A DNA stretch of 64,000 bases from Chloroflexota bacterium (GTDB lineage Bacteria > Chloroflexota > Dehalococcoidia > Lucifugimonadales > JACPQL01), in the NCBI GenBank assembly GCA_016190445.1, contig JACPQL010000041.1, forward strand, positions 1 to 64,000, read 5' to 3'. The notes under the pieces were generated by a model that searched no databases, had not been told where the DNA came from, and was given only the letters and a program-made list of their open reading frames with translations. Positions 22,037 to 26,954 of the stretch are shown piece after piece (within the stretch, counting starts at the first letter, position 1; every line of letters starts with the position of its first letter). A program made the position numbers and the translations under genes.

Positions 22037-23803
22037 TTGCTGAAGCGACTGTATGTGCCCACGGCCTGGGCCGTTCTGGCCAGCGCGCTCCTGGCCATCA
22101 TTGTAGGCGGCGTGGTGCGGGTAACCGGCTCGGGCCTGGGCTGCCCCGACTGGCCGCTGTGCCACGGGCGCATCATACCCCCCGCCGACCTGGGCGCATG
22201 GCTGGAGTACTCTCACCGCGTGGCTGCCGCCGCCACCGGTGTCCTCACGGTCCTTCTGGCCATGGCTGCCTTTAGTCGGTACCGCTGGGGGGACAAAATC
22301 CTCTACCTGGTCCTGGCGGCGCCGGCGCTGCTTCTCCTCCAGGTGGCCCTGGGGGCGCTCAACGTTCTCTGGGAACTGCCGCCGCCGGTGGGCCTGGTCC
22401 ATACCGGTGTGGCCATGGCCTTTGTGGGTTTGCTGGCTGTAGTGGCGGTGAGCACCGCCGGGCCGGTGAAGTGGCAGGCGGCCATTGCCCAGGGTCCGCG
22501 GGCCACTACCTACCGCTGGGTGATGGTGGGCTTGGGGCTGGCCACCTTCCTGCTCATCCTCTCCGGCGCCTACGCCACCCGCACCAACGCCTCTCTTGCC
22601 TGCCTGGGTTACCCCCTTTGCGGAAGGGTTGCCCAAATGGGAGAACCCCAGTGGGTCAGCATGATTCACCGGGGGATGACCGCTCTGGTGGCCCTTGTGA
22701 TGTTGGGTGCGGTGGGGGTGGCTTGGGCCCTGCGCCGGCGGGTTGTCTTGACCCTCACTGTGCTTCTGGCCGGACTGCTGGCGGTGCAGACGGGGTTGGG
22801 AGCGACTAACGTGCTTCTGCTTCTTCCCGCCTGGTCCCGAGGTGCCCACCTGGCGGTGGCGGCCCTGTTCTTTGCTGCGGTGATGCTTCTTCTGGGAGTG
22901 CTGTGGCGCGGAGCTTCGGGTGAAAAGGCATTCCCTGGCCTGAGGCGACTGGTGAGGAGCCACGTTGGCCTTACCAAGCCCAGGATCATAGTGCTGCTGC
23001 TCATTACCACCCTGGCGGGTATGCTGGCCGCGGCGGGTGCAGCGGTGCCCTGGGATGTGACGCTGGCCACCCTGGCCGGTGGCTTCCTTTGCGCTGGCGG
23101 CGCAGGGACCATCAACTCTTACCTGGACAGGGAGCGGGACCTGGTGATGGCGCGCACCAGCCGCCGACCCCTCCCAGCGGGAGAGGTGAGCCCCAGGGTG
23201 GCGCTGGTCTTCGGCATAGCCATATCACTCCTCTCCGTCCCCTTGTTCCTGTACGTCAACACCCTGACCGCCATCCTGGCCGCCATCGCCTGGCTGTACT
23301 ACGTATTCCTGTACAGTATGTACCTGAAGGGGCGCACCACTCAGAACATTGTCATCGGGGGGGCTGCGGGGGCCTTCCCACCACTCATAGGGTGGGTGGC
23401 GGTCAGAGGCGTGCTGGACCTTTCAGGCGTGTTCCTGTTCCTCATTGTGTTCTTGTGGACACCGCCCCACGCCTGGGCGCTGGCGATGCTGGCCAAGGAC
23501 GACTACCGGAAGGTCAAGATTCCGATGCTGCCGGTGGTGCGGGGAGAGGCGGAGACGAGCCGCCAGATCCTTCTCTACGGCGTTGCCCTTCTGGTGGTGA
23601 CGCTGGCCCCTGCGGTGCTGGGCCTCTTCGGGGCCCTCTACCTCGCGGTGGCTGTTCTGCTGGGAGGTTTCTTGCTGGCCCTGGCTCTCAGGCTGTACCG
23701 CTCGCCCGACCGCGTGTGGGCATCCCGCCTGTACCGGTACTCCACGGTCTACCTGGGGTTGCTGTTCCTGGCCCTGGTCTTGGACCGCACCCTGATGAGC
23801 TAG
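22037..23803 (+). CDS. Fused heme A synthase and heme O synthase (CtaA-CtaB)
   Basis: 588 residues. Residues 1 to about 300 are heme A synthase (eight-helix type): GGVVRVTGSGLGCPDWPLC, then the heme-ligand His in YSHRVAA, HTGVAMAF, IHRGMTAL and GAHLAVAA. Residues 305-588 are the UbiA-family protoheme farnesyltransferase: LTKPRIIVLL, the prenyl-diphosphate site NSYLDRERDLVMARTSRRPLP, and KDDYRKVKIPMLP. One chain would thus farnesylate heme b to heme o and oxidise it to heme a for the oxidase encoded upstream. Such fusions are known in other caa3-bearing lineages. TTG start after ACGAGG. Last gene of the oxidase operon; two R3-type repeats follow. Confidence 0.93.
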   Translation: MLKRLYVPTAWAVLASALLAIIVGGVVRVTGSGLGCPDWPLCHGRIIPPADLGAWLEYSHRVAAAATGVLTVLLAMAAFSRYRWGDKILYLVLAAPALLLLQVALGALNVLWELPPPVGLVHTGVAMAFVGLLAVVAVSTAGPVKWQAAIAQGPRATTYRWVMVGLGLATFLLILSGAYATRTNASLACLGYPLCGRVAQMGEPQWVSMIHRGMTALVALVMLGAVGVAWALRRRVVLTLTVLLAGLLAVQTGLGATNVLLLLPAWSRGAHLAVAALFFAAVMLLLGVLWRGASGEKAFPGLRRLVRSHVGLTKPRIIVLLLITTLAGMLAAAGAAVPWDVTLATLAGGFLCAGGAGTINSYLDRERDLVMARTSRRPLPAGEVSPRVALVFGIAISLLSVPLFLYVNTLTAILAAIAWLYYVFLYSMYLKGRTTQNIVIGGAAGAFPPLIGWVAVRGVLDLSGVFLFLIVFLWTPPHAWALAMLAKDDYRKVKIPMLPVVRGEAETSRQILLYGVALLVVTLAPAVLGLFGALYLAVAVLLGGFLLALALRLYRSPDRVWASRLYRYSTVYLGLLFLALVLDRTLMS

Positions 23804-24204: not shown

Positions 24205-24460
24205 GTGAGAATAGGCCTGGCGGGCCTGGGATGTCATGCTGAGGAGGTGGTTGGACTCCTTCGCCTGGAACACCGATTGCCGACGAAGTCCCGACTCCGT
24301 CGAGGACTCGCGACAGAGTCGGAGCATCTGGGGCGGCGGCATTTTCACTCTTCGTGGTGGCCATCACAAAGGGGGCACGGACGATTCTGACGAGTCCGGA
24401 TGACATCGGAATGGGGCGGCTGGGATAAGAACAGGGCAACCCCACCGCCCCAGACCCTTC
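24205..24460 (+). repeat. Second copy of the TGTCATGCTGAGG repeat
   Basis: TGTCATGCTGAGG at 24232 through GGAGCATCTGGGG at about 24334 closely matches 5858-5962. It has the same internal CCGACTCCGTCGAGGACTCG stretch. No gene is present between the tandem repeat and 24520. Confidence 0.7.
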
Positions 24461-24519: not shown

Positions 24520-25122
24520 CTAAGAGGGGCGGCTTCTGAGGGACCTGCCAGGTGAGGCCGCCAGGGTAGAGGGCAGCCGGTGCAGGAGTTCCTTGAGCCG
24601 GCCAATGCCTGGCAGGGGGGGCATGGGGCCTATGTGGCGCACCTTGAGCCGGATGAAGACAGGGCCCCGAACACTCAGTACCTCGTCCAGGGTGGTGGCA
24701 AGCTCCTCCAGGTTGTCGAAATCGTACACAGCGGGGTAGCCGGCGGCCTTAGCCATGGCGGCCAGGTTGGCCTTCTCTCCCCCGGGAACTGGAATGTCCC
24801 CGATGCTGGTGTAGGCGCCGTCGTCAAAGACGAAGTGGGCCAGGTTGGTGGGCGCCTTGTTGGCGATGGTGACCAGTGTGCCCAGGTTCATCAACAGGGA
24901 GCCGTCGCCGTCCAGCACCAGCACCTGACGGTCGGGGGCGGCCAGGGCCAGCCCCAGGCCCAGGGAGGAGGCCTTGCCCATGCACCCTGTCAGGGGCACG
25001 TCCAACTCTGGCCGCTCGCTGATGGTCGTCCATAGCCGGAGGGCGCTCATTGTGGCCACCACCAGCGCCTCGCCGCGTCTCTGGCTGATGGCCCGCGCCG
25101 CGTCCTGCGAGTTGATGACCAT
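24520..25122 (-). CDS. Thiamine-diphosphate enzyme, PP-domain (beta-type) subunit, paralogue 3
   Basis: 200 residues, one thiamine-diphosphate-binding PP domain. MGKASSLGLGLALAAP (about 58-73) precedes the TPP/metal motif GDGSLLMNLGTLVTIANKAP. Distinctively, the metal-ligand Asn found in its paralogues (MANGAY, VQNGMY) is Asp here (FDDGAY). The family matches the ComE subunit of sulfopyruvate decarboxylase and phosphonopyruvate-decarboxylase-like enzymes. The ATG at 25122 follows GGGGGCGAG; earlier codons in the track ORF overlap the upstream gene. It is the last gene of a four-gene minus-strand operon with one PYR subunit (26333-26836) and two further PP paralogues. It is more diverged than the other two and has a Pro/Arg-rich tail. 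Confidence 0.85.
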   Translation of the reverse strand: MVINSQDAARAISQRRGEALVVATMSALRLWTTISERPELDVPLTGCMGKASSLGLGLALAAPDRQVLVLDGDGSLLMNLGTLVTIANKAPTNLAHFVFDDGAYTSIGDIPVPGGEKANLAAMAKAAGYPAVYDFDNLEELATTLDEVLSVRGPVFIRLKVRHIGPMPPLPGIGRLKELLHRLPSTLAASPGRSLRSRPS

Positions 25123-25132
25123 TCTCGCCCCC

Positions 25133-25708
25133 TTACTGGCGCAGGGCCTTCCACACCCTGGGATATGCCTCGGGAGTGCGGGCAAAGGCAGGCCGCTGAC
25201 CGATGGGCCTGGTCTCGATCTCTGGCACCGTCTTCAGGCAGACGAAGACCGGGCCGTTGCCTGAGAATATCTCCGGGGCGGTGGTGGCGAACTCCTCCAG
25301 GTTGTCGAACTCGTACGCCGCCTTGAACCCGCACTCCCGGGCCATCCCGGTGAAGCTGGCGAAATCGTGTCCCGGCACAGGCTGGCCCCCGGTAATGCAG
25401 TAGGCCCCGTTGGCCATCACGAAGTACACCAGGTTCTTGGGGGCCTTGTTGGCCATGGAAACGAGGGTCCCCAGGTTCATCACCAGGCTCCCGTCGCCGT
25501 CGAAAACGATAACCTTGCGCTCTGGGCGTGCCAGGGCGATGCCCAGGGCCATGGAGGAGCCCTTGCCCATGGCGCCTGTCAGAGCGAGGTCCAGGTCCGG
25601 CTTATCAGTTATGGTTGGCCAGTGGCGGCCAGAGGTCATAGCGGGAATGACCACCGCGTCGCCCCGGTACCGGGAGACAATCTCAAGGGCAGCGTGCAGA
25701 TCAATCAT
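25133..25708 (-). CDS. Thiamine-diphosphate enzyme, PP-domain (beta-type) subunit, paralogue 2
   Basis: 191 residues. LTGAMGKGSSMALGIALARP and GDGSLVMNLGTLVSMANKAP, then MANGAY, give an intact TPP/Mg site; GHDFASFTGMARECGF and PIGQR near the end are shared with paralogue 1. The N-terminal MIDLHAALEIVSRYRGDAVV is an alpha/beta fold start, without a PYR domain. It should pair with the PYR-domain subunit to form a complete decarboxylase active site at the subunit interface. The substrate is a 2-oxo acid by family; sulfopyruvate or phosphonopyruvate are known for relatives, but neither pathway is visible here. The gap to paralogue 1 is 46 bp. Confidence 0.88.
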   Translation of the reverse strand: MIDLHAALEIVSRYRGDAVVIPAMTSGRHWPTITDKPDLDLALTGAMGKGSSMALGIALARPERKVIVFDGDGSLVMNLGTLVSMANKAPKNLVYFVMANGAYCITGGQPVPGHDFASFTGMARECGFKAAYEFDNLEEFATTAPEIFSGNGPVFVCLKTVPEIETRPIGQRPAFARTPEAYPRVWKALRQ

Positions 25709-25754
25709 GGGTCGTGCTCCTTTCCAGGCATCGTTATCGGGGCCGCGCCGTCAG

Positions 25755-26330
25755 CTAGCTGCGGAGCGCCTTCCACACCCTGGGCCAAGCCTCGGGAGTG
25801 CGTATCTGCCCTGTACGCTGGCCGATGGGCCGCGTCTCAGCTTCAGGCGCCACCTTCAGGCAGACGAACACCGGGCCCTCCCGTGAGAAGACCTCTCGGG
25901 CGCTGGTGGCCAGCTCCTCCAGATTGTCGAACTCGTATACCGCCTTGTACCCGCACTCCCTGGCCATTCCGGCAAAGCTGGCGAAGTCGTGCCCTGGCAC
26001 GGGCTGGCCCCCGGTGGTGGCGTACATGCCGTTCTGCACCACGCAGTGGACCAGGTTCTTGGGTGCCTTGTTGGCTACGCTGATGAGGGAGCCGAGGTTC
26101 ATCACCAAGGCGCCGTCCCCGTCCAGCAGTATCACCTTGCGGCCCGGCTGGCCCAGGGCTATCCCCAGGGCAAGGGAGGAACCCTTGCTCATGGCCCCTG
26201 TGAGAGGGAGGTCCAGGTTCTTGTTGTTGGTGAGGACATTCCAGTGACGGCTGGCGGTGGAGCAGGCGACCACCACAGCGTCACGCCGGTGTTGGAGTAC
26301 TACCCGCAATGCATCGTCCATATCAATCAC
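25755..26330 (-). CDS. Thiamine-diphosphate enzyme, PP-domain (beta-type) subunit, paralogue 1
   Basis: 191 residues, co-linear with paralogue 2 over the whole length and clearly a tandem duplicate. LTGAMSKGSSLALGIALGQP, GDGALVMNLGSLISVANKAP and VQNGMY form the TPP site. Shared tail PEAWPRVWKALRS. It begins 2 bp after the stop of the PYR-domain gene, so these two are most likely the original alpha/beta pair and the other copies arose later. Confidence 0.88.
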   Translation of the reverse strand: MIDMDDALRVVLQHRRDAVVVACSTASRHWNVLTNNKNLDLPLTGAMSKGSSLALGIALGQPGRKVILLDGDGALVMNLGSLISVANKAPKNLVHCVVQNGMYATTGGQPVPGHDFASFAGMARECGYKAVYEFDNLEELATSAREVFSREGPVFVCLKVAPEAETRPIGQRTGQIRTPEAWPRVWKALRS

Positions 26331-26332
26331 GG

Positions 26333-26836
26333 CTAGTCATACTCCTTCCCCACCAGTACCGCCACTGCGCGGTGGGTGCGCTCCGCCTCCTCAAAGGCGT
26401 TGGAGATGAGGGAGACGTCCCGGTTGGACTCGATCACGTAGTGGTTGATATGCCACGCAGTGAGGATAGGCTCCAGGTAGCGGGCAGCGGAGTCGGTGGT
26501 GACACGATGGCCTGTCCAGCCTCGGTAGCCTATCATCATGACCAGAGGGAGGTCCAAGTCCAGGACCAGGCCTCGCACAGAGTCTCCGGACTCCATCAGG
26601 CCCGTGTTCTGGATCAGCACGACCGGCTTTTTGCCCCCGAGCATCAGGCCCGCCGCCACGGCCATGCTCTCACCCTCACGGCAGACGGATACCAGGTCGA
26701 AGCTCTTGTCCGCCATCATGGCCTGGTACATGAAGTTGCTCTCACTATCGGGCAGCCAGACCACATGGGTCACCCCGTTCTTCTTCCACTGGGCTATGAT
26801 ATCTGCTGGGTTGAGCCGCTGGGTTCGAGTTGTCAT
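26333..26836 (-). CDS. Thiamine-diphosphate enzyme, PYR-domain (alpha-type) subunit
   Basis: 167 residues, ComD-like. VTHVVWLPDSESNFMYQ, then CREGESMAVAAGLMLGGKKP, holds the conserved Glu (about residue 54) that activates the thiazolium in PYR domains. LMMESGDS-like LIQNTGLMESGDSV and PLVMMIGYRGW follow. It has no PP motif and so needs a beta subunit, supplied by the three downstream paralogues. First gene of the operon; its start is ATG after AGGAGG. The assembly resembles split sulfopyruvate decarboxylase, but nothing for coenzyme M synthesis lies nearby, so a catabolic 2-oxo-acid decarboxylase is as likely. Confidence 0.88.
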   Translation of the reverse strand: MTTRTQRLNPADIIAQWKKNGVTHVVWLPDSESNFMYQAMMADKSFDLVSVCREGESMAVAAGLMLGGKKPVVLIQNTGLMESGDSVRGLVLDLDLPLVMMIGYRGWTGHRVTTDSAARYLEPILTAWHINHYVIESNRDVSLISNAFEEAERTHRAVAVLVGKEYD

Positions 26837-26954
26837 CGTTGTAGTCCTCCTGGGGTGGATTTAGCCTGAAAGCGCTCTCCTGAACAGGGCAAGGCGCATT
26901 GTAACGGTGCCACCCCCGGTTGGCAAGGGTGTGTACCCGTCGGGCCTATGCAGG

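Follow-up and report, generated by a model that had tools for sequence, protein, structure and literature searches.

The 64,000-nucleotide stretch of Chloroflexota DNA analysed here (hereafter the window) carries four minus-strand genes in a tight operon, which encode one PYR-domain subunit (alpha) followed by three PP-domain subunits (beta1, beta2 and beta3) of split thiamine diphosphate (ThDP) decarboxylases (Table 1), and we consider it the most likely reading that the one alpha is common to the alternative betas. The ORFs and translations agree with the coordinates, and together with the domain matches they bear out the composition of one alpha and three betas given in a first-pass annotation of the sequence; chance or artefact is ruled out because the four domains are clean and the operon that holds them is consistent in frame. 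The intergenic gaps are 2 nt (alpha-beta1), 46 nt (beta1-beta2) and 10 nt (beta2-beta3), and GC3 is 0.81–0.85 across all four genes. For beta3 the ATG at 25122 was taken as the start, the alternative TTG at 25185 in the ORF list overlapping beta2. The operon is flanked by a divergent gene starting near 26948 and by a plus-strand CtaA-CtaB-like gene ending at 23803. The latter (ORF 22037-23803, 588 aa) resembles, by its translation, a heme A synthase-heme O synthase fusion and adjoins cytochrome oxidase genes.

Table 1. Genes and candidate expression signals of the operon, with positions in the window.
Feature	Position	Strand	Remarks
alpha, PYR-domain subunit, 167 aa	26333..26836	-	ATG start
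beta1, PP-domain subunit, 191 aa, class I (GDG..QN)	25755..26330	-	GTG start, 2 nt past the alpha stop
beta2, PP-domain subunit, 191 aa, class I (GDG..AN)	25133..25708	-	ATG start
beta3, PP-domain subunit, 200 aa, class II (GDG..DD)	24520..25122	-	ATG start at 25122
Candidate sigma-70-like promoter, TTGCCA-17-TACAAT, 61 nt before alpha	26898..26926	-	consensus match only
Terminator-like stem-loop downstream of beta3	24432..24452	-	weak: shuffled sequence gives about as many
Shine-Dalgarno-like AGGAGGA before alpha	26845..26851	-	spacing 8; read from sequence
Shine-Dalgarno-like AAGGAG before beta1, within the alpha 3' end	26342..26347	-	spacing 11; read from sequence
Shine-Dalgarno-like AAAGGAG before beta2	25717..25723	-	spacing 8; read from sequence
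Shine-Dalgarno-like AAGGGGG before beta3	25128..25134	-	spacing 5, weakest of the four; read from sequence

The three betas are matched by Pfam TPP_enzyme_C at 65.5–66.8 bits (cut-off 21.9); alpha reaches 26.5 with TPP_enzyme_N, just below the cut-off of 26.8, and is matched by the NCBIfam sulfopyruvate decarboxylase alpha model (1.1e-23). The AlphaFold model of alpha (pLDDT 88) has as its top Foldseek match RhiE of RhiEF (9iz4_A, TM 0.82), the top PDB matches of the beta1 model (pLDDT 93.8) are the RhiEF chains, and for both proteins the second-best fold match is AzcBC. By homology, the catalytic Glu of alpha would be E54 in 'CREGES'; R53-E54 is invariant in 37 alphas and is aligned with 'IRED' of RhiE. 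Alpha thus appears, from sequence and model, to have the catalytic Glu of the PYR subunit of split RhiEF/ComDE-like ThDP decarboxylases, and the betas have the GDG...N motif of the PP subunit, with Asp in beta3. As the second motif residue, presumably a Mg ligand by homology to 'LDNG' of RhiF, beta1 and beta2 carry Asn and beta3 carries Asp, and Asp at this position characterises a whole beta class in the relatives. As first described, two of the betas are close (69% identity between beta1 and beta2) and one is more diverged (49–54% between beta3 and either of them). Frameshifts and internal stops, which would have marked some of them as inactive relics, are absent; GDG is kept in all three open frames, and dN/dS between beta1 and beta2 is about 0.31 (dN 0.232 / dS 0.758), so that relics are ruled out for all three by motifs, open frames and dN/dS. 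At the sites aligned with T377 and A460 of benzoylformate decarboxylase, which we take to be the sites governing specificity in that enzyme, beta1 has Cys/Thr, beta2 Ala/Ile and beta3 Thr/Ser, and these differences were counted in favour of a shared alpha; T377 and A460 mutants of benzoylformate decarboxylase are both present among the PDB matches.

The curated families name no substrate, since no equivalog model passes its cut-off: alpha scores 84 against 147.95 with TIGR03845, and the betas score 99–111 against 221.5 with TIGR03846 and 105–122 against 312.5 with TIGR03297 (phosphonopyruvate decarboxylase). Linkage to coenzyme M genes is likewise missing, the ComA homologue being away from the operon on contig C16, where it adjoins a separate ComDE fusion. 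The host genome (G000; 2.02 Mb in 52 contigs, 81% complete) contains two further alpha-like domains with 25–28% identity to the main alpha. The one on contig C22 has its own beta directly after it, and the one on contig C16 forms a single fused protein with its beta (ComDE-like). Further alphas, whose existence had been named as an objection to several betas sharing one, are therefore present but each already paired, and an additional alpha free to pair with the window betas was rejected; the assembled G000 contains no second alpha that lacks a beta of its own, and at 81% completeness another alpha could be missing from it. The alpha half of the C16 fusion passes the curated sulfopyruvate cut-off (182 vs 148), and the adjoining ComA homologue, the only one in G000, scores 255 against a cut-off of 280. 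The earlier statement that no coenzyme M genes are present is thus correct for the window and not for the genome. This ComA-ComDE locus (G000:C16:18803-20751; L122:8804-10752) lies among sugar/glycosyl-type genes and is possibly a sulfonate branch in a bacterium. Sulfopyruvate probably has its dedicated enzyme here, and is unlikely to be the main substrate of the window operon because this separate ComA-linked fusion exists. That the window operon encodes either of the enzymes after which the best curated models would name it, sulfopyruvate decarboxylase or phosphonopyruvate decarboxylase, is accordingly very improbable in our view, even though its top NCBIfam matches are these families and RhiEF is its best PDB sequence and fold match: all four proteins are far below the equivalog cut-offs, the ComA homologue and the fused ComDE-like protein are elsewhere in the genome, and PEP mutase has no match at E <= 1e-30 in the 81% complete G000. 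Literature searches on sulfopyruvate decarboxylase in SAR202 or Chloroflexota were unproductive, and searches on heteromeric or hetero-hexameric ThDP enzymes yielded nothing further than the RhiEF review.

Among 98 SAR202-type genomes searched, the window's own included, alpha was found in 67 (E <= 1e-20) and beta in 73 (E <= 1e-12), and alphas and betas were then called by profile in the regions retrieved from the relatives. Motifs and tree divide the betas into four kinds, with the class labels partly set by hand from both: class I (GDG..N), class II (GDG..D), class III, in which S/A/T-E-G stands for GDG and which is nearly always accompanied by an alpha of its own, and a decayed kind. The phylogeny of the PP subunits, which the first-pass annotation had suggested as a check, makes beta1 and beta2 sisters within class I (SH-aLRT 98) and puts beta3 in class II, its deep placement having weak support. 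A single clade of the three window betas was not rejected at 0.05 (p-AU 0.063), the deep branches being weak, and a local origin of beta3 appears disfavoured.

The decayed kind has CDA, CDS, SDA or similar for GDG and was found in 12 relatives and at 42 genome-scan loci, two overlapping organism sets (e.g. L065:10422-11087 and L083:10281-10853, and the 42 loci among L213–L292). Its position is constant, always right after the class I beta. Its median dN/dS is 0.194, and that of the class I beta is 0.195 (271 non-independent pairs), so the label 'relic' suits the motif of this gene in the relatives and not its selection. It is under purifying selection and is probably used, as a subunit in which the normal mode of cofactor binding may be lost.

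The numbers of alphas and betas were compared in the 52 genomes with the main alpha, leaving out class III. The main alpha is single-copy in all 52; intact main betas per alpha number one in 33 genomes, more than one in 18 and none in one. Two of these counts are too high: in G015 the second class II beta is probably a contaminant, being identical to one in G008, and G062 carries a nearly identical pair of copies. The alphas of G062 and G089 exist and lay outside the regions retrieved. One alpha with three apparently intact betas occurs in seven genomes, namely that of the window, three (G059, G078 and G090) with a linked class I, an unlinked class I and an unlinked class II beta, and three (G028, G058 and G086) with three betas in tandem, one of them having TDG in place of GDG; the order class I-class I-class II is found in this genome only, among the relatives examined. 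Incomplete assembly does not explain the beta excess of G014, G066 and G067, since these genomes are in one or two contigs and each has, for its one main alpha, a decayed beta besides two intact betas of class I. The main alpha is accompanied by class I only in G006, G043, G065 and G079, by class II only in G010, G008, G021 and G030, and by both in the window, G012, G059, G064, G078 and G090, and the alphas of the three groups are orthologous by sequence, with 54–70% identity to the window alpha. Either beta class is apparently enough by itself as a partner of this alpha. We regard the alpha as shared chiefly because each class occurs as the only beta found and the two stand together with a single alpha in the window, and these relatives strengthen the first suggestion of several betas drawing on one alpha.

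In about 17 genomes the alpha stands alone beside rpiB with the beta elsewhere, so alpha and beta need not be co-encoded one to one. The lone alphas are in opposite orientation to the adjoining rpiB (ribose-5-phosphate isomerase B type) at L071, L073, L078, L084, L094, L106, L110, L112, L116 and other loci. As for the unlinked class II betas, 19 of 24 are within about 7 kb of the gene for the UbiD-type decarboxylase MqnL (TIGR03701 above cut-off) of the futalosine menaquinone pathway, in a cassette whose typical order is CinA-like, MqnL, MqnP-like UbiA, UbiX, class II beta and PHP protein. At L176, L179, L189 and other loci the class II beta is towards the end of such a cassette and the only main alpha of the genome is elsewhere. 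A required step of menaquinone synthesis was ruled out as the role of the enzyme, since many genomes with MqnL are without alpha or beta, and no MqnL was found in G000.

We propose that the one operon would provide a set of split ThDP decarboxylases with a common alpha. The cofactor would sit between alpha (PYR) and beta (PP), as in split enzymes of this kind, with alpha contributing the catalytic Glu and each beta the GDG motif and Mg ligands as well as a large part of the substrate pocket. Three holoenzymes, alpha-beta1, alpha-beta2 and alpha-beta3, could thus be formed, in which the identity of the beta would set the substrate, and the reaction class would be the decarboxylation of a small 2-oxo (or imino) acid. 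The physical pairing, the decarboxylase activity and the different substrate of each beta are what we infer from the sequences. Counted against a shared alpha were the 81% completeness of G000, the 1:1 ratio in 33 of 52 genomes, the unique gene order of the window, the weakness of the deep branches in the beta tree and the partly manual class labels.

Another explanation, which we think unlikely yet a serious alternative, is a mixed assembly, in which one catalytic beta and another beta as regulatory or scaffold subunit are in the same oligomer, e.g. alpha2-beta-beta'. It is supported by the motif-less beta after the class I beta, which is kept under selection in the relatives, and dead activating paralogues are known elsewhere, such as the trypanosome prozyme, a catalytically dead paralogue that activates its partner (PMC5201418); but GDG is kept by all three window betas, and in many genomes a class II beta is the only one found alongside the main alpha and hence not merely accessory. 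Still less probable is that beta1 and beta2 are a tandem duplication of the same function, maintained by dosage or drift, with beta3 an older relative of overlapping activity. The sister relationship of beta1 and beta2 and their DNA identity of up to 88% in stretches fit such an origin, but the two are subject to purifying selection and differ in 31% of their residues as well as at both aligned pocket positions, and an extra beta without an alpha adds no holoenzyme if the ratio is 1:1. Returning to the common alpha, a wider form of it is possible, which we put forward tentatively and do not favour: alpha might be a hub for the adjoining class I beta, the class II beta of the menaquinone cassette and, in many species, a tuning motif-less beta, and the window would have all hub partners gathered in one transcript.

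ThDP decarboxylases are usually pictured as a single fused chain or a fixed pair. If the proposal of a common alpha is true, exchangeable PP subunits on a common PYR subunit would mean that substrate range is widened by copying half an enzyme. This would be the expansion of one subunit, as against the expansion of whole enzyme families by which Saw et al. explained SAR202 ecology (PMC6946804). The set of betas together with the motif-less beta would also be a natural series for finding which interface half sets specificity.

The closest known system is the phosphonopyruvate decarboxylase RhiEF of Bacillus subtilis ATCC 6633 (PDB 9iz3/9iz4), which like the window proteins has separate PYR and PP subunits with the same domain sizes, ThDP being at the subunit interface (PMC12141560). 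It is the best sequence and fold match of both alpha and beta, with about 25% identity; however, it is encoded in a phosphonate cluster with a single gene for each subunit, whereas here there are three betas and no phosphonate genes were found. ComDE of the coenzyme M pathway, the namesake pair, is alike in its split alpha/beta layout and at the family level, but its equivalog cut-offs are missed and the host has the separate ComA-linked fusion. The alpha-imino acid decarboxylase AzcBC of Streptomyces (PDB 9u8q-9u8s) has the same split PYR/PP fold with about 18–21% identity, and differs in belonging to a natural product pathway and in having one beta per alpha in the deposited complex. LumKL, the thiamin-dependent heterocycle decarboxylase of riboflavin catabolism, is also of two subunits and active as a 1:1 complex (PMC12746152), but its substrate is aromatic, and it is likened here by description, not by sequence. 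A precedent for a subunit common to ThDP enzymes with different substrates is POR/VOR of Thermococcales (PMC4058850); these two are ferredoxin oxidoreductases and the common part is the gamma subunit (Por/VorG), in contrast to the PYR subunit proposed here.

Outside the main alpha and its betas, 30 class III betas were found (e.g. L107:8579-9166), nearly all with their own alpha, and close class III pairs are also present in Betaproteobacteria and Nitrospinota records (L283, L292 and L291). Moreover, a second, more distant ComA-like gene is located upstream of an alpha-beta-beta operon, at a distance of about 1.6 kb, in two relatives (L190:999-1787 in G031:C21, and L192 in G060:C31).
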